Shown here: positions 6,016 through 19,172 of the stretch, one piece after another
Layout: each line of letters opens with the position of its first letter
Position numbering within the stretch: the stretch's first letter is position 1
NCBI GenBank assembly: GCA_027030425.1
Contig: JALVEW010000053.1
Coordinates: 1-40,359 of the forward strand
From: Sedimenticola sp.
Lineage (GTDB): Bacteria > Pseudomonadota > Gammaproteobacteria > Chromatiales > Chromatiaceae
DNA length: 40,359 nucleotides
Reading direction: 5' to 3'
Notes under the pieces: generated by a model
Told to the model about the DNA's origin: nothing
Databases searched by the model: none
Seen by the model: the letters and a program-made list of their open reading frames with translations, nothing else
Program-made: the position numbers and the translations under genes

Positions 6016-8400
6016 TCACTGCCGGAAGCGCAACAGGCGCAGGGCATTGAGCACCACCAGGATAGTGCTGCCTTCGTGAAAGATCACCGTGCTGCTCAGG
6101 GTGATGCCCTGGCCCAGGGAGGCGGTGATGAGAAGAAAGATTACACCCAGGGAGATGGCCAGGTTCTGGACGATGATACGCCGGCTGGCGCGACTCAGGC
6201 CCACGGCAAAGGGTAGCTTGCCGAGGTCGTCGGCCATCAGGGCCACATCCGCGGTTTCCAGGGCCACGGCGGTTCCGGCGCCGCCCATGGCGATGCCCAC
6301 GGTCGCCGTGGCCAGGGCCGGTGCGTCGTTCACGCCATCGCCGGTCATGGCAACCCTGCCGTGGGCTTCTTTCAGGCGCTCGATGGCAAGCAGCTTGTCT
6401 TCCGGCATGAGTTCTGCCTGGACATGGGTAATGCCGGTGAGCCTGGCGATTTGTTCGGCTACCTGGCGGTTGTCCCCGGTAAGCATGATGAGTTGCTCTA
6501 TACCCAGTTCGCGCAGCTTTTCCAGGGATTCAAGGATGTCCGGGCGGAGGCTGTCGGCCACCGCCAGAATGCCCAGAATGCGTTCGCCATGGCTCACGGC
6601 CATGGTGGTCTTGCCTTCGGCTTCCAGTGCCCGCATACGTTTTTCCAGCTCGTCGTCCGGTTCGTACCAGCCGGTTTCCCTGAACAGTCGAATGGTGCCG
6701 ATGAGCACCGGCTGCCCGTTCACCATGCTCATGATGCCTCGGCCAGGAAGATTCTCCATGCCGGATGAAGCAGGGAGGGACAGGTTATGATTCCGGGATT
6801 CTTCCACCACGGCCCGGGCAATGGGATGGCTGGACTGCTGTTCCACGGCGGCGGTGATGGCCAGCAGTTCCTCACGGCTGCTGCCGTTCATGGGAACCAT
6901 ATCCGTGACCCGGAACTTGCCCTCGGTGAGGGTGCCGGTCTTGTCGAAGGCCATGACCCGGATCACCCCAAGGTTCTCCAGGTGGACGCCGCCCTTGATG
7001 AGCACCCCGTTGCGCGCCGCTTGTCCGATGCCCGCCAGCACGGCCGCTGGCGTACCTATGGCCAGCGCGCAGGGAGAAGCGGCCACAAGCAGCAACATGC
7101 CGGTGTAGAAGCTTTGCTCCAGCGGCATCCAGCCTGCCAGCGGCGGCAGAATGATAACCATGGCCACCAGGATGAGTATGGCGGGCACGAACCAGGCTGT
7201 GAACCGCCGGGTGAACTGCTGGGTGGGGCTCTGCTGGCTCTGGGCATTGGCCACCATTTCCATGACCCGGTTCAGGGTGTTGTCCTGGGCTGAACGGGTC
7301 ACCTCTACATCCAGGGCGGCTTCGGTATTGATGGTGCCGGCGAAAACCTCGTCGCCGGGTTTCTTGTTCACCGGCACGCTCTCTCCGGTGATGGGGCTCT
7401 GGTCCACGGCGCTGTTGCCCTTTATCACTCGGCCGTCAACCGGCAGGCGCTCACCCGGGGGAACTATCACGATGTCCCCGATAAGCAGTTCCTCCACGGG
7501 AATCTCGACGATACGGCCATTGCGGCGGGTGCGCGCCCTGTCCGGCATCAGTTCCGCCAGCGAGTTGACGGCGTTGCGGGCGTGATCCAGGGCGTAGTGT
7601 TCGCCGGCATGGCCCAGGCTGAACAGGAACAGCAGAAAGGCGCCTTCCGCCCATTCGCCCAGCAGGGCTGCGCCCAGGGCGGCAGCAAGCATCAGGATGT
7701 CAGTATCGAATTTGCCGCGAAACAGGGCGGGGATGGCATGGGTGGCGATGTCGTAACCGCCGGTAAGGTAAGCGCTGACATAGAAAGCAAGGGCCAGGTC
7801 TTTATCCAGGGCGAAAAATGTCTCTCCAATCCAGCCGGCAAGGAAACAGAGCCCGGACAGGGCGACCAGGATGTAGGTCCAGTTTTCCTGTATGGCGTGA
7901 GGCAGGAATGCCGGCGCGCCTCCGTGGTCGTGGTCGCGCTTCCGCTCTTCTTTTCCGCTGGCAGGTTCGAAGCCCAGTTCCCGCATGGCGCTTTCGATTT
8001 GGCTACGGTCCTGTTTTTCTGCGTCATAGGCCACGAAAGCCAGGCCCGCTGCGGGGTTGACGCTGGCGTGCAGCATGCCCGGCAGTTTCTCCAGCGTCCT
8101 GGTCAGTATAGTGGCGGCATCGGCGGAGACATGGCTGTCGAAAGGAATGCGTTCATGGCGGTACTGGCGGGTGAAGTTACTACCGGCTTTTCTTGCCAGC
8201 CGCTCCACTTCCCCCAGTGATACCAGGTTGGGATCATAATGAATGCAGAGCTGGGCGGGTTGTCCCGGTTTGATGTGGGCCAGGTAGATGCCCTTGTGCA
8301 GCATCAGTTCTTTTTCAAGGGTCTCCAGGCATTGGTCCCGGGCATCGTCCACCTGCGGCAAAAGCAGGGGTATATCGAGCTTGATGGTCTTTTCTGTCAT
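6016..8400 (-). CDS. Heavy-metal-translocating P1B-type ATPase (SPC / HEGST motifs, P1B-4-like)
   Basis: This 794-residue inner-membrane pump contains the TGES actuator motif (ITGESVPVNKKPGDE), the phosphorylation site DKTGTLT (Asp about 486) and the hinge GDGVNDAP (about 686). The transmembrane metal site reads SPC (about 442) instead of CPC, and near the C-terminus is HEGST. SPC together with HEGGT-like residues is typical of P1B-4 ATPases (Co/Zn/Fe/Cd export), so cobalt- or zinc-type export is the best guess. The first 150 residues look like two HMA-type folds without CxxC, followed by a short HDHGG stretch. I chose the ATG at 8400 because AGGAGGG lies just upstream; a longer frame to 8529 would overlap plsC. 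It is the last gene of a leftward operon, 31 bp after the acyltransferase. Confidence 0.92.
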   Translation of the reverse strand: MTEKTIKLDIPLLLPQVDDARDQCLETLEKELMLHKGIYLAHIKPGQPAQLCIHYDPNLVSLGEVERLARKAGSNFTRQYRHERIPFDSHVSADAATILTRTLEKLPGMLHASVNPAAGLAFVAYDAEKQDRSQIESAMRELGFEPASGKEERKRDHDHGGAPAFLPHAIQENWTYILVALSGLCFLAGWIGETFFALDKDLALAFYVSAYLTGGYDIATHAIPALFRGKFDTDILMLAAALGAALLGEWAEGAFLLFLFSLGHAGEHYALDHARNAVNSLAELMPDRARTRRNGRIVEIPVEELLIGDIVIVPPGERLPVDGRVIKGNSAVDQSPITGESVPVNKKPGDEVFAGTINTEAALDVEVTRSAQDNTLNRVMEMVANAQSQQSPTQQFTRRFTAWFVPAILILVAMVIILPPLAGWMPLEQSFYTGMLLLVAASPCALAIGTPAAVLAGIGQAARNGVLIKGGVHLENLGVIRVMAFDKTGTLTEGKFRVTDMVPMNGSSREELLAITAAVEQQSSHPIARAVVEESRNHNLSLPASSGMENLPGRGIMSMVNGQPVLIGTIRLFRETGWYEPDDELEKRMRALEAEGKTTMAVSHGERILGILAVADSLRPDILESLEKLRELGIEQLIMLTGDNRQVAEQIARLTGITHVQAELMPEDKLLAIERLKEAHGRVAMTGDGVNDAPALATATVGIAMGGAGTAVALETADVALMADDLGKLPFAVGLSRASRRIIVQNLAISLGVIFLLITASLGQGITLSSTVIFHEGSTILVVLNALRLLRFRQ

Positions 8401-8431
8401 GAACCCTCCTGGCCCAGGTGAATCTTCCAAA

Positions 8432-9181
8432 TCAGTCGAGATATTTCTTCTGCCAGTCCAGAAAGCAGGCATGGGCATGGCTGCAGTAGCTCTCCTTGTC
8501 CTCGAACTGTTCCGGCTGGAAGGCATCATACAGGTGATAGTTCACCCGGTTGTTGCTGCTGAGCATGAATTCCAGGATCTTGCGTGGCAGGCTTTGAGAT
8601 GACCAGTGGAAGTCGTCCTGGGATTCATAGTGCAGGAAAACCGGCAGTACGGGGACACCGCTGCGCAGGGAGATGTCGAATGCACCATAGCGGAAATGAT
8701 CATGCAGGCGTTTGCCCTTGATGCCCCCTTCCGGGTAGAGGGCGATGTTGTACCCCGATTTGAGGGCTTCCAGCATGTCCTGACTGGCCTTCTGGCGTGA
8801 GTCCCTGGACTCCCGGTGAACATAGATTGTGCCAGCGGCAGCGCTGATGCGCCCCACTATCGGCCAGCTCCGGACTTCTATCTTGGCAAGGCTGAGTACG
8901 GGAAACAGGGAGGGGATGCCGATGTCCTCGAAGGCAGATGGATGATTGGCGATGAGAATGTACTGATCAGGAATGTCATGCCGGTTGTGCTGATGCAGCC
9001 GGAGGTTTACTCCCAGGGCGTCTGTCCAGGCCTTGCACCACAGCTTGAACAGTTTACGGTACCAGGGGCGTCCGTGCCTCTTTCGGGGAAGAAAGGCGAG
9101 AGGATAGAGCAGGGCGGTGAGAATCAGCAGCTCCAGCCAGCCGGCCAGCATCCACAGCCAGCGGAGGAGGGGACGGATCAC
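8432..9181 (-). CDS. PlsC-like 1-acyl-glycerol-3-phosphate acyltransferase family protein
   Basis: The 249-residue protein begins at a GTG (9181) overlapping the TGA of the thioredoxin-like gene in a GTGA arrangement; GGAGGG lies just upstream. A membrane helix spans about residues 11-31. Then comes ILIANHPSAFEDIG (block I), FPVLSLAKIEVRSWPIVG, a YVHRESRDSR segment and ALYPEGGIKGKRL (block III). The family moves an acyl group from acyl-ACP or CoA to lysophosphatidate or related acceptors at the inner membrane. Block I is unusual: four residues after His80 is Glu85, with Asp86 one place later, instead of the normal HX4D. Block III has EGG instead of EGT. It may be an ornithine-lipid or lysophospholipid-type branch rather than housekeeping PlsC. 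Confidence 0.82.
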   Translation of the reverse strand: MIRPLLRWLWMLAGWLELLILTALLYPLAFLPRKRHGRPWYRKLFKLWCKAWTDALGVNLRLHQHNRHDIPDQYILIANHPSAFEDIGIPSLFPVLSLAKIEVRSWPIVGRISAAAGTIYVHRESRDSRQKASQDMLEALKSGYNIALYPEGGIKGKRLHDHFRYGAFDISLRSGVPVLPVFLHYESQDDFHWSSQSLPRKILEFMLSSNNRVNYHLYDAFQPEQFEDKESYCSHAHACFLDWQKKYLD

Positions 9182-9573
9182 CGGTTTCCCTCCAGAAAGT
9201 CCTGCAGAAGCCTGGGCTTTTTCTGTCCCACCAGCACCTGGCTGATGCTGCCATCCTCGATGAGCAGGGTGGTGGGGGTGGCGCGTATGCCGATTTCTTT
9301 CGCCAGATCCAGGTGTTGACTGATATCCAGGGTGTAGACATGGGGATGGCTTTGGGCCAGGCCGGTGATCTGTGGAAGCATGGCTTTGCAAGGCGCGCAA
9401 CCCGGGCTGTGGCAGAAAACCAGGGCACGCTCTTCCGCGGGAAGATCGGGAAAGACGCGGTGCAGGGCGGATACAGACTGCCCTCTGGCCTGCATGGCCT
9501 TGTGCCGGATAAAGAGTTGTGCGCCAAACACCAGGGCGATGATGCCGAAAACGATGAAAGGGGTGGTATCCAT
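9178..9573 (-). CDS. Membrane-anchored thioredoxin-like protein
   Basis: The 131-residue protein has one N-terminal transmembrane helix (about residues 5-22) followed by a thioredoxin fold. The redox motif is CAPC at residues 59-62 inside FCHSPGCAPCKAMLPQI, and the cis-proline loop is RATPTTLLIEDG. The alternating strands (ALVFCHS, VYTLDIS, TTLLI) match the fold. By the usual topology the thioredoxin domain would face the periplasm, but the short N-terminus does not settle orientation. It probably reduces or oxidises a disulfide; the partner is unknown. It is sandwiched between gloA (7 bp upstream) and the acyltransferase (stop/start overlap), so the genes are translationally coupled. Confidence 0.8.
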   Translation of the reverse strand: MDTTPFIVFGIIALVFGAQLFIRHKAMQARGQSVSALHRVFPDLPAEERALVFCHSPGCAPCKAMLPQITGLAQSHPHVYTLDISQHLDLAKEIGIRATPTTLLIEDGSISQVLVGQKKPRLLQDFLEGNR

Positions 9574-9580
9574 GTCGGTG

Positions 9581-9976
9581 CTACGCTCCCGCCCATTTGT
9601 CGTTGAGCAGTTCGATGGGATAGCCGTCAGGGTCTTCCAGAAAGGCGATGATGGTGCTGCCCGCGTTCATGGGACCCGCGTCGCGTAGGATTTTCACACC
9701 TTTTTCCCTGGCGATACGAGTGGCTTCATACACATCGTCCACGGCAATGGCGATGTGGCCGAATGCCGTGCCAAGCTCATAACTGTCGACGCCCCAGTTG
9801 TAGGTCAGCTCCAGTACGGTGCTGTCCGCTTCTTCCCCGTAGCCGAGAAATGCCAGGGTGAATTTTCCTTCCGGGTATTCTTGCTGGCGAAGCAGCCGCA
9901 TTCCCAGGATTTGTGTATAGAAATCAATGGATTCTTGCAGGTTTCCCACGCGTAACATGGTGTGCAGCAGGCGCAT
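9581..9976 (-). CDS. gloA: Lactoylglutathione lyase (glyoxalase I)
   Basis: This 131-residue cytoplasmic enzyme converts the hemithioacetal of methylglyoxal and glutathione into S-lactoylglutathione. All four metal ligands of the bacterial Ni-type enzyme are present at the E. coli numbering: His5 (MRLLH), Glu56 (VLELTYNWG), His74 ([12 protein letters not shown]) and Glu122 (GYPIELL). The betaalphabeta-betabetabeta repeats are complete and the length is normal. It is the first gene of a leftward operon with the thioredoxin-like, acyltransferase and ATPase genes, and its promoter is described at 10014-10042. Confidence 0.96.
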
Positions 9977-10013
9977 TCTCCCGTGGCTCCAATAAAATTG
10001 TTCGTTGGCATTG

Positions 10014-10042
10014 AGGATAGCCGCTTCGCGCCCATGTCACAA
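10014..10042 (-). promoter_or_regulatory. Promoter for the gloA operon
   Basis: On the minus strand TTGTGA (complement of 10037-10042), 17 bp, then TATCCT (complement of 10014-10019) gives a sigma-70-like promoter. It would start transcription about 30 bases upstream of the gloA ATG. Confidence 0.45.
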
Positions 10043-10103
10043 ATGTGCGGAGGATATTGCGGCAATTGGTTTTGTGATGCAGTAGGGGGATAAATCAGCA
10101 GTT

Positions 10104-10136
10104 CTTAATCTTCATTTAATCTTGCTCTCCCATAAT
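10104..10136 (+). promoter_or_regulatory. Promoter with PmrA/QseB-type direct-repeat box upstream of the multiheme cytochrome
   Basis: CTTAAT (10104-10109), five bases, TTTAAT (10115-10120) is a direct repeat with an 11-bp period, the geometry used by OmpR-family dimers such as PmrA, QseB and BasR. A -10 candidate, CATAAT, lies at 10131-10136, so the box covers the -35 region as in activated promoters of this class. Transcription would start about 35 bases ahead of the ATG. Confidence 0.55.
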
Positions 10137-10176
10137 TGCCAGTACGAAATGACCAGCACCCAGGAGGAATATCCTC

Positions 10177-12708
10177 ATGAAAACCATCCCCCGATTGCAG
10201 ATTCGTCTGTTGCTGATACTGGCAGCGCTCTGCATTCCCGCCGTTGCCACGGCGGATTTCAATGATAGTGTCGGCCTGACCAATGTCAGCCTGGCGCAAA
10301 GCGAAGATGATGACGACAGCAAGGATGATGGCTTCAGCAGACAGACCCTGTCCATTAAAAGTGCCAAATGGGACAAGGAAAAGAAAAGACTGGAGGCCAA
10401 AGGCAAAGGGCCCAACAGGAAAAAGCTGTATCTGGAATCCGTGGCCTCCGGCCAGGTTCTGGGCACGACCAATATCCGGTCCAACAAGTGGAAGGTCAGG
10501 GTCGTCCTCAATGACAAGGTTCCTTGCCGCGTGCGTGCCCGCCTGGATGATGGCAGTTTTGTGGAAAAGGATGTCAAGGGCGCGCCCAAGGACTGTGATG
10601 ACGGTGGAACGCCCCCTCCACCTCCTCCCATGGCGGGAGACTATACCGTATTGGCGGCAAATGACCTGGGGATGCATTGTGCGGACCAGGACTTCCGCCT
10701 CTTCAGTATCCTGCCTCCCTACAACGTGCTGAACGCCCAGGTTTTGCGCAAGGGAGACGAACCTGAGTTGCTGGGTCGGGCTGACGGCATCGAGGTAACC
10801 TACAGAGCGGTTCGGGGCAACATCATCGATCCCTCGAATCCGAATCTTCCCCCCGTTGCCACCGACTCCATTACGGCAACCAACCAGAATGATCTGATCA
10901 GTGGCATTTTCAAGTCCAATTTCTGGGATATAGCCTCTGGTCCCACGGGCAAGGCCATCGGTTTTCTGGCGTATGAAAAGCTCTATCCCCCGGGCATTCT
11001 GGGGCTGTTCCCCTTTGAGCCCGACCTGGGGCTGCCAGCGCCCAACGTGGAAGAGTTCTATCTCATCAATCCGGGGCACCTGACCGCTGAGCAGGCGGAG
11101 ATGCCGGGCAAGGCTGATCCCTACAACATCAATGAAGCCAAGCCCTTCCATGCCTATTACAAGGACTTTCCGTTCTTCATCAACTTCCCGTTCGGGTACA
11201 CCGTAAGGGATTTCAACAGGTTCGCGGCGGAAGGCATTCCGACGGGATACATCGATGACCAGGGCCGCACCAATGCCTATCCCCTGATGCGGGTGCAGGC
11301 TTGGGATTCCAGTGGCAAGATGCTTGCTTCCGTGGATGCGGTGACCCCTGTGGCTTCCGAGGCCGACTGCGCCATCTGTCATGCCAGCCAGAATGTCTGC
11401 GATTACGACACCACCAATACCCTGGTGTGTGATGACATCGCCAACTTCAAGTATCCCGGTGTGAACTTCATTACCGATGCCAGCATGGTCATCGGTGCCA
11501 CGCCAGAGCAGCAGGTGATTAACGCGGCCAAGATCAATATCATGCGTCTGCATGATCACAAGAACGGCACGTCTATCGCACCGGTGAATGATGATGGTAC
11601 CAACGCGGATGGCAGCACGCCCAACGTGGTCTGTGCCAACTGCCACTATTCCCCGGCGCTGGACCTGGCGCACCTGGGACCCACCGACGACAATGGCAAG
11701 GAGCAGACTCGCCATGTGAGCATGTCCCGCGCCATGCATGCCACTCACGGCAACCTTCCCAGTGTCGATCCCAGCCTGTATGGCGACCTGTTCCCCATCA
11801 TGCCGCCTCCTGATCAGCGCGCTGGCCTGGATGTGGACGGTCTGCTGGCGGAGACCTGCTATAACTGTCACCCCGGCAAGCGGACCAAGTGTCTGCGGGG
11901 CGCCATGGGAGGCGCCGGTACCGTCTGCCAGGACTGCCATGGCCAGATGACCCAGGTGGGTGATGATTTCACCGAGAACTTTGCCGATGTGCCCTTCCCG
12001 GCTGGCGCCAACCTGAACAAGCGGGTTTCCTGGGCGTCTGAGCCCAAGTGTCAGTCCTGCCATGTGGGAGATGTGCTGCAGGTTGAGCAGCTGCGCAACA
12101 ACGGACAGCTCAATGATGTCATCGTGAATGCGATGGACAGCATGGGCAATCCTGATGGACTGCGTCTGCAGATGACCTACCGCAGGTCTGATCATGCCAT
12201 GAACGGTGGTGGTACGGATCTGGCCCTGCTGGATTTTCCTGACTCCCGTTTTGCCACCACTGAAGCCTTGTATCGGCTCAGCGGTGTGGGTGACAAGGGA
12301 CACGGCGACCTGAGTTGCGAGAATTGCCATGGCAGTACCCACGCCATCTGGCCCAACAACAATCCGTTCTCCAACGACAACAAGACCGCCATGGACCTGC
12401 AGGGGCACTCTGGAACCATCATCGAGTGTTCAACCTGTCATACCCAGGATCCCGGCATCACTCTGGAAGGCCCCCATGGTATGCATCCCGTGGGCAATAC
12501 CCGTTTCTCAGCAGGAGGGCATGAAAAACTGGCTGAGAAGAACAAGGATGCCTGTCGCGCCTGTCATGGCACTAACGGTGAGGGCAGCGTCCTCTCCCGT
12601 GTGGCAGTGGACCGTGTTCTGGACAAGGATGATGATGGCAAAAAGACCATCAGCCTTGCCAAGGGTGAACCCGTGACCTGTAGCCTTTGTCACGAGAATA
12701 AGCTCTAG
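10177..12708 (+). CDS. Exported multiheme (nine CxxCH) cytochrome c
   Basis: This 843-residue protein starts at an ATG preceded by AGGAGG and carries a Sec signal peptide (LLLILAALCIPAVATA). Residues 30-145 hold a lysine-rich beta domain (KSAKWDKEKKRLEAKGKG...) closed by a PPPPPP linker. Next is a region with NDLGMHC and FSILPPYNVLNAQV, a pattern I associate with large multiheme cytochromes. Nine c-heme motifs follow, all in the C-terminal half, at about residues 398, 486, 561, 584, 625, 714, 751, 793 and 835 (CAICH, CANCH, CYNCH, CQDCH, CQSCH, CENCH, CSTCH, CRACH, CSLCH). It is most likely a periplasmic or outer-surface electron carrier or reductase; the substrate is unknown. No cytochrome maturation or partner genes are adjacent. 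A two-component system follows 0.37 kb downstream. Confidence 0.92.
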   Translation: MKTIPRLQIRLLLILAALCIPAVATADFNDSVGLTNVSLAQSEDDDDSKDDGFSRQTLSIKSAKWDKEKKRLEAKGKGPNRKKLYLESVASGQVLGTTNIRSNKWKVRVVLNDKVPCRVRARLDDGSFVEKDVKGAPKDCDDGGTPPPPPPMAGDYTVLAANDLGMHCADQDFRLFSILPPYNVLNAQVLRKGDEPELLGRADGIEVTYRAVRGNIIDPSNPNLPPVATDSITATNQNDLISGIFKSNFWDIASGPTGKAIGFLAYEKLYPPGILGLFPFEPDLGLPAPNVEEFYLINPGHLTAEQAEMPGKADPYNINEAKPFHAYYKDFPFFINFPFGYTVRDFNRFAAEGIPTGYIDDQGRTNAYPLMRVQAWDSSGKMLASVDAVTPVASEADCAICHASQNVCDYDTTNTLVCDDIANFKYPGVNFITDASMVIGATPEQQVINAAKINIMRLHDHKNGTSIAPVNDDGTNADGSTPNVVCANCHYSPALDLAHLGPTDDNGKEQTRHVSMSRAMHATHGNLPSVDPSLYGDLFPIMPPPDQRAGLDVDGLLAETCYNCHPGKRTKCLRGAMGGAGTVCQDCHGQMTQVGDDFTENFADVPFPAGANLNKRVSWASEPKCQSCHVGDVLQVEQLRNNGQLNDVIVNAMDSMGNPDGLRLQMTYRRSDHAMNGGGTDLALLDFPDSRFATTEALYRLSGVGDKGHGDLSCENCHGSTHAIWPNNNPFSNDNKTAMDLQGHSGTIIECSTCHTQDPGITLEGPHGMHPVGNTRFSAGGHEKLAEKNKDACRACHGTNGEGSVLSRVAVDRVLDKDDDGKKTISLAKGEPVTCSLCHENKL

Positions 12709-12733
12709 TTTTTCAAGGAGTTATCCGCTAATT

Positions 12734-12767
12734 GCCTGCGCCGTATACACGGTGCGGGCTTTTTTTT
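12734..12767 (+). terminator. Intrinsic terminator after the cytochrome gene
   Basis: GCCTGCGCCG and CGGTGCGGGC form a 10-bp stem (two G-T pairs) with loop TATACA, followed by eight T residues. It lies 26 bases past the cytochrome stop and separates it from the regulator operon. Confidence 0.9.
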
Positions 12768-13074
12768 GAGGATATGGCGCCCCACCGGGTTAATAAGATT
12801 GAATTAAGAATCTTTTGCTAGATTTGTAGCCTGATTGGCTGCTGTCGTCTACAGTCATTGGTATATACCAACGACAATACACACAATAACTATGAGAGGA
12901 GTTGAACATGACGCTGAGGAACGATTCGGCGTTTTCCTTGTTAGTGATCAGCATTTTCTGTCTTGTCAGATAAGGTGAAGGGCCGGGCAGGCAGGGACCT
13001 CGTTCAATCTTCGGGGATAGCTTGTCCGTTTTCGTCAGAATCCGGGGCTGGTGGATTTCCGAGGAACCGTTGCC
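12768..13074 (+). promoter_or_regulatory. Regulatory spacer upstream of the two-component operon
   Basis: This stretch between the terminator and the response-regulator start has a direct-repeat box, AATAAG-N5-ATTAAG (12792-12808). On the minus strand it reads CTTAAT-N5-CTTATT, like the box before the cytochrome. It also contains a perfect 14-bp palindrome, TTGGTATATACCAA (12858-12871), and a possible small reading frame at 12908-12973. I see nothing else. The box suggests autoregulation by the response regulator; the palindrome may bind a second regulator. Confidence 0.45.
12908..12973 (+). CDS. Possible 21-residue hydrophobic leader peptide
   Basis: An ATG at 12908 preceded by GAGAGGAGTTGAAC opens a 21-codon frame ending in TAA. 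The peptide has a polar start (MTLRNDS) and a hydrophobic second half (FSLLVISIFCLV). The good ribosome-binding site is the main support. It could be a small membrane peptide or an upstream reading frame controlling the two-component operon 100 bp downstream. There is no homology evidence. Confidence 0.3.
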   Translation: MTLRNDSAFSLLVISIFCLVR

Positions 13075-13740
13075 ATGAAGATACTGTTGCTGGAAGACGA
13101 TACCTTACTGGGGGAATGTGCCAGGGTGGGCCTGGCGCAACGGGATTTCTTGGTGGATTGGGTGACGGAAATTCGCTCGGCGCGACGTATGATGCAGGGA
13201 AACGAATATGCCTCCATGCTGATGGATCTCAGTTTGCCTGATGGTGATGGTCTGGCTTTTCTAAGGGAGCTTCGTGACGCTGGCAACGCCATTCCCGTAA
13301 TCATTATCACCGCGCGCTATGAAGTCGAGGAACGGGTAAAAGGACTGGAATACGGTGCCGACGACTACCTGACCAAGCCCTATTCCCTGGATGAGCTGGC
13401 GGCCAGGCTGCGCGCGGTGCTACGGCGTCGTGAGGGCAGGGCCAGCAATATCCTGGAATGTGGCGGGATTCGAATGGACCCCCTTTCAATGTCCACCAGT
13501 ATCGACGGAAAGAAAATCGATTTGTCCCCCATGGAGTTCCGCCTGTTGCGCGCCTTTCTTCAGCAGGCAGGCAAGATCCAGACCAGGGACAACCTGTTGC
13601 AGGCCTTGTGTGGTGACGGAACGGAGGAAGTGGCGAGTAATCTTCTCGATGTGCATATCCATCACCTGCGCAAGAAGCTGGGCAGTGAACGCATCAAGAC
13701 CGTGCGTGGCCTGGGCTACATGTTCATGCGGGAAGATTGA
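13075..13740 (+). CDS. OmpR-family response regulator (QseB/PmrA-like)
   Basis: This 221-residue protein has a receiver domain (MKILLLEDDTLLG, acidic pair Glu7/Asp8-Asp9, phospho-acceptor Asp51 in LMDLSLPDG, Thr in IIITAR, Lys in YLTKPYSLDELAARL). A winged-helix DNA-binding domain follows (LSPMEFRLLRAFLQQAG, VASNLLDVHIHHLRKKLG, IKTVRGLGYMF). The sequence style matches the QseB/PmrA/TctD branch, whose members bind TTAA-type direct repeats 11 bp apart. Such boxes occur before this operon and before the cytochrome gene. I chose the ATG at 13075 because the receiver domain starts exactly there. Its last four bases overlap the TTG start of the sensor kinase. Confidence 0.93.
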   Translation: MKILLLEDDTLLGECARVGLAQRDFLVDWVTEIRSARRMMQGNEYASMLMDLSLPDGDGLAFLRELRDAGNAIPVIIITARYEVEERVKGLEYGADDYLTKPYSLDELAARLRAVLRRREGRASNILECGGIRMDPLSMSTSIDGKKIDLSPMEFRLLRAFLQQAGKIQTRDNLLQALCGDGTEEVASNLLDVHIHHLRKKLGSERIKTVRGLGYMFMRED

Positions 13741-15227
13741 CCTTGGGGTACACCGCATCACTGGGCCGGCGTCTGCTGCTTATCCTGGCTGCCGCCATGC
13801 TGGTGGCCCTGGTGGTTACTGCCTACAGTCTCCTGGAATACGTGGATAAAGAGGCTGAGGAAGTGCTGGATGCCAGACTGATGCTGACCGCCGAGAATCT
13901 CCTGCGGCAGTCCCGAAGGCATGTGCGGGAGGGCAACCTCAATGAGGTATGGCTGACCCTGGAAACGGTGCGCGGCCTGGAGAACGCCTGGCTGGGAAAA
14001 TTTGCCAATGCGGACAAGATGGTGTTTGGCAAGGATGATCATGCACCGGAGGAAGATGATGTGCGATCCTATATCTGGCTTACCAGTGGGGATGGCAAGG
14101 TGGTGGTGGGCCAGGTGCTCCCCGGCTATGATCCCAACCATCCCAAGGAGGAAGGGCTCAGGACCGTCCGCCATGACGGTGCGGAATGGCGTGTGGCAGA
14201 GGTCCGTCAGGAGGGCCTGCATCTTCATGTCGCCCAGCGGGATGACCTGAGAGCCTACCTGGTAAGGGAGATTGGCTGGAAACTGATGGAAAAGCAGCTT
14301 ATCGCCATTCCTGTGATTGTCTTTGTCCTCTGGCTGGGCATTCGGCGGGGATTGCGGCCCCTGTCCCGCCTGAGTGAGCAGATCGCCAGCCGCAAGCCGG
14401 ACAACCTGCAGCCGGTGGAGCTGGAGCAGGTGCCCGGTGAAATCGTCCCCCTGGTCAAGTCCATCAATGAATTGCTGGACCGCCTGCGTATCACCCTGGA
14501 GAGTGAACGCAGCTTCACTGCCGATGCCGCGCATGAACTGCGCAGTCCCCTGGCCGTGGTGCGTAACGTGGCGCGCATCATGTCCAAGTCCGGGAATCTT
14601 GCGGAAGTCCACCAGGCCAGTGAGCTGCTGGACAAGAGCGCCGTGCGCATGGCGGATCTGCTTTCCCAGCTGCTGCACCTGTCGCGGCTGGACAGCCTGG
14701 TGCAGGCAGATCCCTCGGGTCGTGTGTCACTGCGTGAGCTGATGAGGGATGTCGTTGGTGAACTGTTTCCCTTGGCATCAGATAAAGGCATGCATGTGGC
14801 CTATCTGGCGGATGATGAAGCCTGTATTGCTGGTGATGAGGAATTGCTCCGCCTGATGTTCCGCAACCTGATTGGTAATGCTGTGAAATATGGTCACCAG
14901 GAGGCTGAAATTCACACGCGGATTCATGAGGATACCCTGCTCATCGATATACTGGATGACGGCCCGGGCGTGGATGCGGGTGAGTTACCGCATCTGTTTG
15001 AACGTTTCTACCGAAGTCAGCTCGCCAAGCAGAAAGTGGAAGGCAGCGGCTTGGGGCTTTCCATTGTGCGGCGTGTGGCTGAGCTTCACGGTTTCCAGGT
15101 CAGTGCGGCGAACCGTACGGAAGGTGGTCTGGCCGTTACCGTGCGTGTTCCGTCAGGCACTTGGCGGCCAGCGTTGGATGAGGGCAGTGTAGAAGAAAAG
15201 CGGTTGTCTCGCACTTCGTCAAGCTAG
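13737..15227 (+). CDS. Sensor histidine kinase (QseC/PmrB-like)
   Basis: The 496-residue inner-membrane kinase begins at a TTG overlapping the regulator stop (TTGA). Its layout is TM1 at about residues 12-31, a periplasmic sensor of about 150 residues, TM2 at about 183-202, a short HAMP-like linker (RRGLRPLSRLSEQI), HisKA with His266 in FTADAAHELRSPLAV, then HATPase_c with NLIGNAVKYG, DDGPGV and GSGLGLSIV. It should autophosphorylate and pass phosphate to Asp51 of the co-encoded regulator. The periplasmic domain has no CxxCH or cysteine pair, so it is not itself a heme sensor. The signal is unknown; location beside a multiheme cytochrome suggests a redox or metal-related signal, but this is inference. 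Confidence 0.92.
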   Translation: MTLGYTASLGRRLLLILAAAMLVALVVTAYSLLEYVDKEAEEVLDARLMLTAENLLRQSRRHVREGNLNEVWLTLETVRGLENAWLGKFANADKMVFGKDDHAPEEDDVRSYIWLTSGDGKVVVGQVLPGYDPNHPKEEGLRTVRHDGAEWRVAEVRQEGLHLHVAQRDDLRAYLVREIGWKLMEKQLIAIPVIVFVLWLGIRRGLRPLSRLSEQIASRKPDNLQPVELEQVPGEIVPLVKSINELLDRLRITLESERSFTADAAHELRSPLAVVRNVARIMSKSGNLAEVHQASELLDKSAVRMADLLSQLLHLSRLDSLVQADPSGRVSLRELMRDVVGELFPLASDKGMHVAYLADDEACIAGDEELLRLMFRNLIGNAVKYGHQEAEIHTRIHEDTLLIDILDDGPGVDAGELPHLFERFYRSQLAKQKVEGSGLGLSIVRRVAELHGFQVSAANRTEGGLAVTVRVPSGTWRPALDEGSVEEKRLSRTSSS

Positions 15228-15258
15228 TATTCTGGCTGTCGGTAGAAGAACAGTTGCC

Positions 15259-16929
15259 GTGGGCTTTGTGTTCCGTACATGGAAGCGCTACCCTGCCATG
15301 ATGTTGACAGGCATTCGAAACCGGATACTGGTGTTCGCCATTCTGGCAACGCTGCTGCCTTCACTCGTGCTTGGGTGGATGTATTTTCAGCAGTCCCGGC
15401 AGGCTCTGCTGGACAACACGGCGCGTGAAATGAAAGCGGTTGCCTCCCAGGCTGAGAGAGAGATTCTGCTCTGGCTGAAGGAGCAACTGTTTGAGCTTCG
15501 TGTGTTTTCTGGTTCCTACCTGTTGTCGGAAGCCCTGGAAAGCTATCGTCAGCCCCGGGCGGCCGAAGACGTCAGGTCGGAGGAGGTGGTGAACAGCCTG
15601 GGCAGCTACCTGTCGCTGGTGCGTGACCAGTACAGCTATTATCGAAAGTTACTGGTGTTCGACAATGACGGGCAGCTCATCGTGCATGAACCCCTGGACG
15701 AGCCTGGGGCGCTTCTTCCCCCGGACTGGCTGGCCCAGCTGGGTGAGAAGCGTGCGGTCCTGGGTGACTTCCACCGTGAGGGAAGTGATGGACAGCCGGC
15801 GCTGATGCTGGGCGTGCCCGTCGCCTCGGCGAATGATGGCATGCTGGGAGTGCTGGCGGTGGAAGTGCAGCCTCTGGAGCTGGAGAAGACCTTGTATTCC
15901 CTGCTTTCCGAAAGTGAGAACAGGGGCTCGGGAACACGCCTGATGCTGGTTGATGCCAGGGGAATGGTGGTGCTGGATGCCGCAGGTGGCAGTGAAGACG
16001 AAACTGGTAGAAAGTGGCGTGTTCCTTTTCCGCGGAATGATGTCCGGGATCTGATTCGTTACCGAAACAGCCAGGGAAAGGATGTGGTAGGGCTGCTGCT
16101 GCCTGTAAGCGGCTCATCCTGGGCAGTACTTATGGAAAAGCCCCGGGATTATCTGTTTGCGCATATCGAGCGCACCCGGAACATGGCTGTTCTTGTGGTG
16201 GCGGGGATAGTTGCCATGATAGGGGGCATTGCCTGGCTGTTGGCCAGGGAGATTATTGCTCCTCTCGGAGAATTGACCGCTGCGGCTCGTGAAGTGGCCA
16301 AGGGAAACCTGGATGTGTCCATCAGGGTGCGGCGTAAGGATGAGTTGGGGTTTGCTTCCACTGTATTCAATGACATGGTTGGCCAACTTCGCTACAGCCG
16401 GGAGCGCCTGGAGAAACTGTCCACCACGGATTTCCTGACCGGCCTTCCCAACCGGGCTGCCATCCTGGACGCACTGTCCGGAATGCTTAAGCGCTATCAG
16501 CGCTATTCACGGGTGTTTTCCCTGCTGATGATCGATGTCGACCATTTCAAGTCCATCAATGACAAATACGGCCATGTGGCGGGGGATGAGGTACTGCGCC
16601 ACCTGGCTTCCATGCTCCGGGAGCAGATGCGCGAGGTGGATGTTATCGGACGCTATGGTGGCGAGGAATTCATCGCCCTTCTGGATGAAACGGATGGGGA
16701 ATCCGCCCTGGTGGTAGCCGAGCGGCTTCGTACGGAGATTGCTGCCTTGGGAATCGATATCCAGGGAAACCCGACACATATAACAGTGAGCATTGGAATT
16801 GCCGAAGCAGAACAGGAAGACAAAAGTGCGGATGGCCTTATCGACCGGGCAGACAAAGCCATGTATCTTGCCAAGCAGAATGGCCGGAACAGGGCTGAGC
16901 TGGCCGGGGTCTCCAGGCGTGATTCATGA
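15259..16929 (+). CDS. Membrane diguanylate cyclase (Cache-like sensor, HAMP, GGDEF)
   Basis: This protein of up to 556 residues makes the second messenger c-di-GMP from two GTP. It has TM1 (about residues 23-41), a long extracytoplasmic sensor of the double-Cache type to about residue 300, TM2 (IAMIGGIAWLL region), a HAMP domain, and a C-terminal GGDEF domain. The active site is GGEEF at about 467-471, and an inhibitory RxxD site (REVD) lies five residues before it, so product inhibition is likely. The GTG at 15259 gives the longest frame; ATGs at 15280, 15298 or 15301 are also possible, and the start is not settled. It follows the kinase by 31 bp and is probably co-transcribed, linking the two-component system to c-di-GMP. 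It ends tail-to-tail, overlapping the SH3 gene by 6 bp. Confidence 0.9.
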   Translation: MGFVFRTWKRYPAMMLTGIRNRILVFAILATLLPSLVLGWMYFQQSRQALLDNTAREMKAVASQAEREILLWLKEQLFELRVFSGSYLLSEALESYRQPRAAEDVRSEEVVNSLGSYLSLVRDQYSYYRKLLVFDNDGQLIVHEPLDEPGALLPPDWLAQLGEKRAVLGDFHREGSDGQPALMLGVPVASANDGMLGVLAVEVQPLELEKTLYSLLSESENRGSGTRLMLVDARGMVVLDAAGGSEDETGRKWRVPFPRNDVRDLIRYRNSQGKDVVGLLLPVSGSSWAVLMEKPRDYLFAHIERTRNMAVLVVAGIVAMIGGIAWLLAREIIAPLGELTAAAREVAKGNLDVSIRVRRKDELGFASTVFNDMVGQLRYSRERLEKLSTTDFLTGLPNRAAILDALSGMLKRYQRYSRVFSLLMIDVDHFKSINDKYGHVAGDEVLRHLASMLREQMREVDVIGRYGGEEFIALLDETDGESALVVAERLRTEIAALGIDIQGNPTHITVSIGIAEAEQEDKSADGLIDRADKAMYLAKQNGRNRAELAGVSRRDS

Positions 16930-17823
16930 ATCGGTATGATTCTGCGGCCCGCGTGGGGGGATTTCCTCGACAGGAAGAACCTTCAGCAGGCTGAAATGCA
17001 CCCAACCAGGCTTTCCGTCCAATCCCCTGATTTTCACCCATAGGCCCTGCCGGTCGGTGACGGATACCCTGGTTCCTGCCGGAAGAGTGGACAGGATTTC
17101 TGCCTTCAGTCCGGGGCTTCTGCGCACGTTGCCCATGATGCGCGTTTCCATAACCACCGGAACCGGGAAGGCAGAGTGATGGCTGCCATCGCCGGACCGC
17201 AGGGATTTGAGCTGCCCCAGGGCGAGCCTGGCCCGGTTTGCCAGGTAACGGGCGCCCTCGTAGTTGCCTGTGGCCAGTGCCTGGTCCGCCATGTCCAGAT
17301 AGTGCCGGGCGCGTAGAAGCCTTTCCTGGTACATGGGTTCCAGGTCGTGTTCCTCTGCCGATTCCAGCTCCACCTTTAGCTCGGCCAGGTCGGTCACTGT
17401 ACCCGCCTTGCTGTAGTGATTGCGAACCCGGGCCTTGGTGCGCACCACCTCCTGGATGGCTTGCTCCAGTGACTGTTGCAACTGATGGTTTTTCGAATCC
17501 TTTTCCGCCAGTTGCAATCGGAGTTCGAGAAGCTGCTTTCTTTGAACCTTGTTTCTGACCCGTGACTGGCGCAGCTGCTCCTGCAGTTCGCGGTTCCGGG
17601 CTTCGATGGCTTCCTGCTGTTGACTGCTGTCCGGTGGTGCAGGTGTGTGAGTGATTTCCGGACTGCTTTCCCTTGCAGGACTACAACATCCTCCCAGCAG
17701 CAGGAGAAGGGCCGCCCATGCCGCCGAAGTAGCAGCTGTTGGATGGATTACGGCGGAATCGGCAGCCCGGAAAAAGATTCGCCCGGCAATCCCGCGGGGG
17801 GACTTGGTGCAGGGGGTATTCAT
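16924..17823 (-). CDS. SH3-domain lipoprotein with coiled coil
   Basis: The 299-residue protein starts at the ATG at 17823. An N-terminal stretch of about 34 residues precedes the hydrophobic AALLLLLGGCC, which fits a lipobox (LGGC), although the n-region is long and a later start is possible. Residues 60-130 form a glutamine/arginine/glutamate-rich coiled coil. The segment ERLLRARHYLDMADQALATGNYEGARYLANRA resembles a TPR-like helix pair. The C-terminal 75 residues are a bacterial SH3 (SH3b) domain: NVRRSPGLKAEILSTLPAGTRVSVTDRQGLWVKI..GKPGWVHFSLL. SH3b domains commonly bind peptidoglycan or peptides, so it is likely an envelope-anchored protein. It is the last gene of a three-gene leftward operon, 14 bp after the membrane protein. 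Confidence 0.8.
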   Translation of the reverse strand: MNTPCTKSPRGIAGRIFFRAADSAVIHPTAATSAAWAALLLLLGGCCSPARESSPEITHTPAPPDSSQQQEAIEARNRELQEQLRQSRVRNKVQRKQLLELRLQLAEKDSKNHQLQQSLEQAIQEVVRTKARVRNHYSKAGTVTDLAELKVELESAEEHDLEPMYQERLLRARHYLDMADQALATGNYEGARYLANRARLALGQLKSLRSGDGSHHSAFPVPVVMETRIMGNVRRSPGLKAEILSTLPAGTRVSVTDRQGLWVKIRGLDGKPGWVHFSLLKVLPVEEIPPRGPQNHTDS

Positions 17824-17837
17824 GGTGGAACCACGAT

Positions 17838-18605
17838 TCAATTGATGTGTTCCTCCAGCCGGATGCCCAGTATTTCCAGCATGGCACCACCGAATGCGCC
17901 GCCAATAACTCCCCCAAGCAACCCCAGGGGAGCTGCGTCCAGGACGCCCTGGTAGCGGCTGATCTGGCCCAGTTCGGGTATGGTGAGATAGCTTTCTCCT
18001 ATGATCCAGAATACCGATGCCACGGCCACGGCAATGAGTCCACAGACCAGAGGGCCGCCCATTTTCAGTGCCAGCGCGCTGCCCAGCAGCGCCAGCCGAT
18101 GCTTGATCAGGAACACATAGCACAATCCCACGAGGGACACGGCAATGGCAGCGACCGCCCAGTGGTTACCCATGAGCGAGGTGCTGCTGACCACAAGGTA
18201 GAGCACGGGGCCGGACGCCAGTCCTGCCATCAATCCCGTGCCGGTCTGGGCCAGGGGTTGTGAATCGCGAATCTCCCGCTTGGTGAAAAAGCCTCCGGCG
18301 ATGAAGCCCAGTACCAGGGCGATGCCGAGCAGCAGAAGGGGTTGGTGGTAGCTGGCAAAGAGTATCTGGTAGGAAATGGCCGTCAGTATCCCTGTAAGCG
18401 TGCCTCCCAGGGCAACGAGCATGCTGCCGAAGAAGGCGGATATCACCATTCCCGAGAGGCCGCAGGCGAGAATCAGCGCCAGCCAGGGAGAAACGCCCTC
18501 GATGAGAAGAAAGTTGAGCATGCCGGCAAAGAAGCCGCCAAACAGAGCGCCGGAGAACGCCCAGATGATGGCTTTGCCCAGGATTTTTGAAAGCTTGTCC
18601 AGCAT
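17838..18605 (-). CDS. Polytopic membrane protein of unknown function
   Basis: This 255-residue protein has about seven to eight predicted membrane helices with glycine-rich small-residue motifs (SGALFGGFFAGM, LGGVIGGAFGGAM). A cytoplasmic-looking loop FFTKREIRDS lies near residue 110. I do not recognise the family. The strong glycine zippers resemble membrane-channel or glycine-zipper proteins. It sits between a 17 kDa-antigen-like exported protein (start 18978) and an SH3 lipoprotein, with gaps of 10 and 14 bp, so the three are probably co-expressed and envelope-related. Confidence 0.7.
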   Translation of the reverse strand: MLDKLSKILGKAIIWAFSGALFGGFFAGMLNFLLIEGVSPWLALILACGLSGMVISAFFGSMLVALGGTLTGILTAISYQILFASYHQPLLLLGIALVLGFIAGGFFTKREIRDSQPLAQTGTGLMAGLASGPVLYLVVSSTSLMGNHWAVAAIAVSLVGLCYVFLIKHRLALLGSALALKMGGPLVCGLIAVAVASVFWIIGESYLTIPELGQISRYQGVLDAAPLGLLGGVIGGAFGGAMLEILGIRLEEHIN

Positions 18606-18615
18606 GGCATTTAAT

Positions 18616-18978
18616 TTATTGGCTGCGAACCCGCCAGCCTTTGCCGGGCTCCTTGCAGAAGGTCAGGGGCCTGCCGTCCCTGCCGGCATTCCCGTCCGGG
18701 GAGAAGCGCACCTGCCGGCAGGGTATTTCCGAGTCATGGAGGGTGTTCAGGATAACCACGTCGCCCTGGCGGCCTGATTCCTGGTTGCGCCAGTGGCGGG
18801 TTTCTCCGTCTGCCGCCGTATCGAGAGCGTCCTTCAGGGTCTGTGACATTGCCGCCCAGTCGGCTTCATCGAGGTCGCCCAGGCTTGAGTTGTGCAACCA
18901 TTGCCAGTTGCTGGCCTGGCTGTCCAGGGACGCCAGGATGAGCGCCAGGAACAGAATTCTGTGTAATCTGAAGTTCAT
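18616..18978 (-). CDS. Exported surface-antigen-like (17 kDa antigen type) small protein
   Basis: This 120-residue protein has a signal peptide (ILFLALILASLDSQAS). The mature part follows the order of the RT0821/Lpp0805-like surface-antigen domain: LGDLDEADWAAMSQTLKDALD, then RHWRNQESGRQGDVVILN, then IPCRQVRF and LTFCKEPGKGWRV. The two cysteines (CRQ and FCK) may pair in the periplasm. The function of the family is unknown. It opens the leftward operon and is divergent from ilvI across a 194-bp spacer. Confidence 0.65.
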   Translation of the reverse strand: MNFRLHRILFLALILASLDSQASNWQWLHNSSLGDLDEADWAAMSQTLKDALDTAADGETRHWRNQESGRQGDVVILNTLHDSEIPCRQVRFSPDGNAGRDGRPLTFCKEPGKGWRVRSQ

Positions 18979-19081
18979 CTGTGTCGGTGCCGGTCGTGGG
19001 GATATGCAGCCAATTCTACACGCTTCTTCCCTGCTGCATCATGGCAGGGCATGTCAATGGAGTGAACAGGGTAGTTTTTCA

Positions 19082-19110
19082 TTGACCTGCAAGGTGAATA
19101 TCAGTATTTT
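19082..19110 (+). promoter_or_regulatory. Promoter of the ilvIHC genes
   Basis: TTGACC (19082-19087), 17 bp, TATTTT (19105-19110) is a reasonable sigma-70 promoter about 55 bases ahead of the GTG start of ilvI. No leader peptide or attenuator is evident in the short leader. Confidence 0.5.
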
Positions 19111-19172
19111 ACAATGTTTGGATTTTGTCGCTTCAGACAAGACCGGATTGGGTAATTTTGGAGGTTATCGCG

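Follow-up and report, generated by a model that had tools for sequence, protein, structure and literature searches.

A two-component system of the PmrAB/QseBC kind probably controls a nine-heme c-type cytochrome through an operator box upstream of the cytochrome gene. The gene lies at positions 10177 to 12708 on the forward strand of the window (the whole stretch of 40,359 nucleotides analyzed here) and encodes 843 amino acids (aa) with a signal-like N terminus and a match to the Pfam family Cytochrome_C7. It is preceded by a PmrA-type operator at 10104 to 10120 (+), CTTAAT-CTTCA-TTTAAT, which fits YTTAAK-N5-YTTAAK with zero mismatches, and followed by the genes for an OmpR-family response regulator of the PmrA/QseB type (13075 to 13740, +), a QseC/PmrB-like sensor histidine kinase (13737 to 15227, +), and a diguanylate cyclase (15259 to 16929, +). 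A reverse PmrA-type box, CTTAAT-TCAAT-CTTATT at 12792 to 12808 (−), lies upstream of the regulator and kinase genes with one mismatch to the same pattern. Both boxes had been proposed in a preliminary description of this DNA, and a direct sequence match placed them exactly there. This pattern is that of the published PmrA operator class, (C/T)TTAA(G/T)-N5-(C/T)TTAA(G/T) (PMC10729948, PMC10927774; like the other papers below, cited from the parts of their text available to us). The boxes, their promoter geometry and conservation, the linkage of the genes, and the PmrA-like DNA-contact residues of the regulator carry this reading.

In the genome that contains the window (2,837,954 bases; G000, where G-numbers denote genomes and L-numbers loci), the pattern CTTAATN5YTTAWT matched exactly two sites, the boxes at 10104 and 12792, and the reversed control matched none. 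Searching for CTTAATN5CTTAAT with up to one mismatch again returned only these two boxes. With up to two mismatches, there were 23 matches in the genome compared with 35 for the reversed control, and such weak matches were therefore regarded as noise. Conservation of the box across cytochrome-bearing genomes was the refutation test named beforehand in the preliminary description: the cytochrome box was kept in all eight same-genus genomes that carry the cytochrome, regulator, and kinase genes together, and it recurs beyond the genus. In one of the eight, G014, the genes are split between two contigs that share an overlap of 344 bases (98.8% identity). Within the genus, the letters of the box were identical in the four nearest loci and formed a perfect CTTAAT-N5-CTTAAT in three others; three more loci carried TTTAAT- or TTTAAG-N5-CTTAAT, and G010 differed, with CTTCAG-N5-CGTCAG. 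Except for those of G010, the half-sites of the genus match the PmrA consensus YTTAAK.

We found the same enrichment over a broader set of 52 deduplicated upstream regions, taken from cytochromes chosen for having at least eight hemes. A mismatch-free YTTAAK-N5-YTTAAK was present in 19 of them and a box with up to one mismatch in 26, compared with 4 and 15, respectively, of 468 control regions upstream of other open reading frames (ORFs) in the same loci, which were taken from 150 aa upward and are not all real genes. For the perfect boxes, this difference gave a Fisher p of 2e-17, and the four perfect control boxes belonged to two truncated cytochromes and two ORFs running antisense over the cytochrome start. 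Shuffled cytochrome regions contained the box in 7 of 2,600 cases. Among the cytochromes with less than 75% identity, perfect boxes were seen in 9 of 35 and boxes with up to one mismatch in 14 of 35, and two Rhodocyclaceae loci (L062 and L063) also had perfect boxes. The cytochrome box is beyond chance, and the information content of its columns is partly built in, the boxes having been selected by sequence.

The position of the box within the promoter was also conserved. A −10-like hexamer, CATAAT at 10131 to 10136 (+), begins 10 nucleotides (nt) after the second half-site and sets the box at the −35 place (ATCTTC, 17-nt spacer), in agreement with the overlap described beforehand. The second box is likewise followed, 10 nt on, by a −10-like hexamer, TAGATT at 12819 to 12824 (+). 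A generic sigma-70 scan reported neither promoter, which fits a missing −35 yet lends them no independent support. A YAnnnT hexamer, which had not been selected for, was located exactly 10 nt past the second half-site in 19 of 25 boxed cytochrome promoters, and none of the other offsets rose above 4 of 25. When only nonredundant cytochromes were counted, 12 of 17 had the hexamer at offset 10, compared with 4 of the 48 control regions whose box had two or fewer mismatches.

Combining box and hexamer into a composite pattern, YTTAAK-N5-YTTAAK-N10-YANNNT, left one match in this genome, the cytochrome promoter. Across 210 genomes of the family, there were more than 150 composite matches. Among the 150 listed, 39 lay within 1.8 kb upstream of one of the 85 cytochrome matches and none within 1.8 kb downstream; 37 of the 39 shared the cytochrome strand, and together they covered 36 of the 85 cytochrome matches, in 35 of the 71 genomes with a cytochrome. 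The span of 1.8 kb is wide because cytochrome matches often start inside the gene, and the 85 places leave out G014:C188, the second piece of a gene already counted. Chance would be expected to yield about 0.03 upstream matches (an estimate from 85 × 1.8 kb in roughly 800 Mb), and the reversed composite control gave about 27 matches in all in the same genomes, by a hand count.

The presence of the box was linked to that of the regulator-kinase pair. In a table of every distinct cytochrome locus that had a testable start and was flanked on each side by 2.5 kb (38 rows), the box was found in 11 of the 13 rows with a pair within 2.5 kb but in 7 of the 25 rows without one (Fisher p = 0.0016). The table counts L186 twice (its gene looks frame-broken), includes L058, whose frame has no heme motif and looks broken too, and misses the pairs of L182 (regulator more than 2.5 kb off) and L186 (regulator a partial match), which both sit among the seven boxed rows labeled as pairless. 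Short-contig loci, for example those of G011 and G014, are outside the table. Inspection showed a PmrA/QseB-type pair next to the cytochrome in G000, G001, G004, G007, G008, G011, G013, and G014, and further in G024, G025 (one of two copies), G117, G118, G119, G167, G172, and G219. All of these inspected loci except that of G219 are boxed at up to one mismatch, and the linked rows without a PmrA-type box are those of G219 and G086.

The encoded regulator belongs to the class that reads such boxes, and domain searches agreed with the regulator, kinase, and GGDEF protein of the preliminary description. The regulator exceeded the Pfam cut-offs for PF00072 (receiver) and PF00486 (Trans_reg_C), was nearest to PmrA (211.5 bits, cut-off 330) and QseB (207.1 bits, cut-off 345) among the NCBIfam equivalogs, and was approximately 40% identical to the PmrA/BasR chain 8jo2. 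Its start is placed at ATG 13075, which is favored over the possible GTG at 13051 by the 13 of 25 matches to relatives that start at residue 8 or 9. The kinase has a HAMP-HisKA-HATPase architecture, with HAMP slightly under the Pfam cut-off, and its best NCBIfam match was QseC (230.4 bits, cut-off 475), followed by PmrB (188.3 bits, cut-off 314); it also matched the QseC structure 3jz3 in the PDB, and its H-box appears complete. The periplasmic stretch of the kinase carries an ExxE-like EAEE, a motif that recalls iron sensing by PmrB. The base contacts of Klebsiella pneumoniae PmrA are T187, N188, V192, H195, N196, and R210 (PMC4660055), and at these six positions the regulator has SNVHHR against TNVHNR in PmrA, four of them being identical and two replaced (T187S and N196H). 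SNVH(H/N)R was present in 14 of 14 aligned PmrA/QseB-type regulators beside cytochromes, an alignment without those of G117 and G014. By comparison, the OmpR paralogs p3 to p7 of this genome were identical to PmrA at three or fewer of the six positions. In the nearly complete genome G007 (L077), the kinase gene beside the cytochrome, on the reverse strand, has an in-frame TAG after residue 329, which falls between the phospho-acceptor and ATPase domains. A broken regulator in G014 was considered and rejected, as the listed stop is upstream of the start.

Several observations weigh against control of the cytochrome by the adjacent pair. No box at up to one mismatch was present in 26 of the 52 cytochrome homologs, most of them distant, and the linked locus of G219 matches only at two mismatches. 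The box was also found without a nearby pair in L046, L049, L050, L063, and L066, as well as in L174 and L185, where the flanks are short. The second box is missing in four of the eight close genomes (G008, G011, G013, and G014), where the gap between cytochrome and regulator is shorter, and both the regulator and the kinase fall under the NCBI equivalog cut-offs for PmrA, QseB, PmrB, and QseC. This genome also encodes a second, QseB-like regulator paralog (RR2, G000:C98:6675-7322) whose SNVHKR equals the adjacent regulator in PmrA contacts, with four of six each, and the cytochrome box is still perfect in G006 and G009, where no adjacent-type regulator was found. Since boxed loci exist with no pair found nearby, the adjacent regulator is not the sole possible reader of the box.

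It is therefore conceivable, although rather unlikely in our estimate, that the boxes are read mainly by RR2, or by both regulators, with the adjacent pair being one of several inputs. No copy of the adjacent regulator was found in G005, G006, G009, and G010, and RR2 was present in all four. Two of these genomes, G005 and G010, are 84% complete, the G005 cytochrome is cut at a contig end, and the G006 RR2 was seen in a separate search, being under the cut-off of the main regulator search. RR2 carries SNVHNR in G005, G006, and G009, where it also has its own reverse box with a hexamer at offset 10, and SNVYNR in G010, with Y at contact position 195; G006 and G009 thus have RR2 alongside their perfect cytochrome boxes. 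On the other hand, in the four genomes in which both regulators were examined (G000, G001, G004, and G007), contact position 196 of RR2 is K, and the best match within 300 nt upstream of RR2 has at least three mismatches. The cytochrome repeat of G010, moreover, is the altered one given above. In this small sample, control looks to have been handed over between the adjacent regulator and RR2. We retain the adjacent pair as the probable controller of the cytochrome: the earlier proposal that a regulator of this class controls it gains from a box that is conserved and linked to the pair, its claim of control by the kinase stays conditional, and in G006 and G009, which are boxed without this regulator, a related paralog may read the box.

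In the mechanism that we propose, a periplasmic signal would cause the kinase to phosphorylate the regulator, and a regulator dimer would bind YTTAAK-N5-YTTAAK at 10104 to 10120, in place of a −35 element. The bound regulator would then activate RNA polymerase from the −10 at 10131 to 10136 (class II activation). Because the hexamer keeps a fixed 10-nt offset, we infer that the box stands in for the −35, an activator arrangement. In this genome, the regulator may also bind the reversed box at 12792 to 12808 and boost its own operon, including the diguanylate cyclase gene. Repression of the cytochrome, with a dimer on the box blocking RNA polymerase at −35, is distinctly improbable. The box does cover the whole −35 region, but this region (ATCTTC) offers no TTGACA-like −35 to block, and the fixed distance between box and −10 in 19 of 25 promoters is the one required by an activator replacing the −35. 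In addition, PreA/QseB of Salmonella is reported to autoregulate its own operon positively and to activate the gene for cytochrome b561 (PMC2653508). That AT-rich sequence gave rise to the boxes by chance, with an incidental gene order, is hardly credible. The two-mismatch boxes show no genome excess over the reversed pattern, and in 15 genomes of the genus the totals with one mismatch allowed come close to the control (39 versus 32, by hand sum), but the Fisher test and the composite positions, with 39 listed matches upstream of cytochromes and 0 downstream where 0.03 were expected, reject chance for the cytochrome box, and the 12792 box, taken alone, could still be a chance match.

An intrinsic terminator (12734 to 12759, +; 11-bp stem, T8 tail) sits after the cytochrome gene, so the regulator, kinase, and cyclase genes look like a transcription unit of their own. 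The reverse box before this unit was found in four of the eight close genomes, with up to one mismatch in three and with two in G001, so that the second box of the preliminary description held for these genomes and not for the other four. The best match in G014, with two mismatches and near the start, was not counted because its first half is without TTAA. In the four genomes without the second box, read-through from the cytochrome promoter could replace it. The reverse boxes before RR2 in G005, G006, and G009 support the view that regulators of this class commonly autoregulate. A 21-codon ORF, MTLRNDSAFSLLVISIFCLVR, with a good ribosome-binding site is located at 12908 to 12973, in the long leader of the regulator gene.

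The cyclase has a dCache-HAMP-GGDEF architecture, scored 162.6 bits against PF00990, and has intact GGEEF and REVD motifs, the latter at the inhibitory-site position; it may raise cyclic di-GMP (c-di-GMP) when the operon is on. However, the gene follows that of the kinase in two of the six visible loci (this genome and G001), the contigs of G011 and G014 ending too early, and it looks like a local extra rather than part of the conserved system. The preliminary description had the kinase acting on the c-di-GMP level through the cotranscribed cyclase, a gene order present here and in G001 that does not generalize, and a general c-di-GMP module was rejected as unsupported. A different c-di-GMP neighbor, a HAMP-PAS-GGDEF-EAL protein, is convergent to the cytochrome in L181 and L182, as are two phosphonate-binding-like periplasmic proteins (families scanned in L181).

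A variant of the operator was noticed at loci with another type of pair. G086 has a pair of the SK1 type (kinase RSRSLWD, regulator SNVRRR), and its cytochrome promoter reads TTTCAG-N5-TTTCAG, with TAGGGT at offset 10. Another SK1-type pair lies approximately 3 kb from the cytochrome in G066, where the locus is cut at the contig end. Three cytochrome promoters that lack a PmrA-type box had TTCAG-like repeats in the same 11-bp frame, with YAnnnT at offset 10, namely those of G086 (L074/L179), G198 (L055, ATTCAG-N5-ATTCAG), and G010 (L034), and no pair was seen beside the cytochrome in the latter two. A TTCAG repeat with up to one mismatch occurred in 4 of 52 cytochrome regions and 8 of 475 controls (p = 0.02, post hoc). 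This pattern, with one linked case noticed post hoc, suggests that the operator letters and the regulator type change together.

The cytochrome itself has its nine CXXCH motifs at residues 398 to 835 of 843, behind an N-terminal beta-sandwich domain predicted from structure modeling (residues ~55 to 140; 10339 to 10596, +) and a PPPPPP linker read from the sequence (10612 to 10629, +), as the preliminary description had it. Nine CXXCH motifs were counted in 52 of 54 full-length ORFs collected by similarity alone, with eight in L070 and none in L058, whose frame is broken. The part before the hemes contains many invariant residues (NDLGMHC, SILPP). An AlphaFold2 model built with 33 homologs had a mean pLDDT of 51.9 and a pTM of 0.36, and only its beta domain, a confident block with pLDDT of 85 to 95 at residues ~61 to 140, is usable. 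In G010 (L034), this domain is present twice. A sequence search of the PDB found no relative at E ≤ 1, a Foldseek search of the PDB returned weak matches, Ig-like and SoxZ structures among them, with no heme protein recognized among the 50 matches listed, and a search of the plasmid collection gave no match. The Pfam model for MtrC/MtrF domain II/IV remained under its cut-off (23.5 bits versus 30). Judging from its hemes and signal-like segment, the cytochrome probably transfers electrons in the periplasm or at the outer surface.

The promoter class was also seen before other genes. In genus g8, a second, distant nine-heme cytochrome (~1,150 aa) is located behind a composite PmrA-type promoter in L188 and L191 (G167 and G164). 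Immediately upstream of it is a thioredoxin-like gene, which Pfam identifies as a redoxin in L188, and the L188 cytochrome contains ELGMHC...LPPYN. In L187, L198, and L199 of the same genus (G167, G180, and G171), a composite promoter precedes a LolA-like gene (by Pfam, in L187 only), which is followed by a gene for a protein of ~740 aa that is without a Pfam match in L187 and outer-membrane-like by eye. In G117, the promoter class precedes a cytochrome c gene pair. Together, the 16 stretches inspected hint at a wider regulon. In G009 and G006 (L157 and L158), a PepSY_TM-like gene (Pfam scan of L158 only) is preceded by a box with a −10-like hexamer at offset 10, and G010 (L159) has one at a similar place. 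In genus g65 (L180, L183, and L186), a very large protein follows the boxed cytochrome; it has 1,916 aa and a weak SdrD_B match in L180, whereas several separate ORFs occupy the corresponding stretch of L186.

PmrAB and QseBC are known chiefly for polymyxin resistance and virulence. A conserved operator of this class before a large multiheme cytochrome, in several genera of sulfur oxidizers and in a pair of Rhodocyclaceae loci, suggests that the class has a respiratory or metal-related role. The source organism is most likely a sulfur oxidizer from the group of its relatives, which in the named collection bear the labels Sedimenticola sp., Thiolapillus brandeum, and other gammaproteobacteria, with a few further ones. 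T. brandeum oxidizes sulfur with oxygen or nitrate (PMC4136832). As a speculation that we hold only tentatively, PmrA/QseB-type sensing in sulfur-oxidizing gammaproteobacteria might be chiefly a respiratory switch, by which periplasmic metal or redox conditions would turn on nine-heme cytochromes that deliver electrons to, or take them from, a solid or extracellular partner. In g8, the switch would extend to the second nine-heme cytochrome and to further proteins of the envelope and of electron transfer. One promoter frame, with half-sites 11 bp apart and the −10 ten nt on, would then have had its letters rewritten between TTAAK for PmrA/QseB-type and TTCAG for SK1-type regulators. The defined promoter offers a handle for finding the signal that induces the cytochrome, and regulator-operator coevolution could be tested on variants that occur in nature: loci lacking the adjacent regulator, a paralog that has a box of its own, and the SK1-type pair beside a TTCAG repeat.

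Among known systems, the MtrC/OmcA-type cytochromes are likewise multiheme and are weakly matched in Pfam, MtrC having ten hemes and the present protein nine. A literature search that covered few subscription journals found no paper combining "PmrA box" and "multiheme cytochrome," and, in the text available, nothing was recognized as this nine-heme family or its operator; the nearest were the SHP operons (PMC2909971) and, in Allochromatium vinosum, a cluster induced on pyrite that combines diheme cytochromes and a two-component regulator (PMC11267869). In the SHP operons, cytochrome genes occur with alternative sensor pairs, SK2 being QseC-like and SK1 having variations of RSRSLWD (PMC2909971). 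Like these SHP/DHC/cytochrome b operons, the nine-heme cytochromes occur beside both SK1- and QseC-type pairs, and the presence of such pairs beside cytochromes is already known. Unlike in the SHP operons, the cytochrome here is a different, nine-heme one, and the available text on those operons mentions no operator (PMC2909971). None of the genes for SHP, diheme cytochrome c, and cytochrome b was recognized by eye in the ORFs at ~7000 to 20000, a check that included no SHP family search. The novelty earlier claimed for the layout therefore does not extend to the QseC-type pair beside a cytochrome, while the nine-heme family, its conserved PmrA-type operator, and operator letters that shift with the regulator type were not found described in the portions of literature at hand. 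The system resembles QseBC (PreAB) in that QseC is the best match of the kinase, but its scores are below the QseC and QseB cut-offs and its operator is of the PmrA type rather than the published Escherichia coli QseB consensus (PMC10729948). With PmrAB (BasSR) of enterobacteria, it shares the operator class and four of the six base contacts of the regulator. It differs from PmrAB in its PmrA and PmrB equivalog scores, which are below the cut-offs, and in its target, which is a multiheme cytochrome here, whereas the known targets of PmrA are lipopolysaccharide modification genes.

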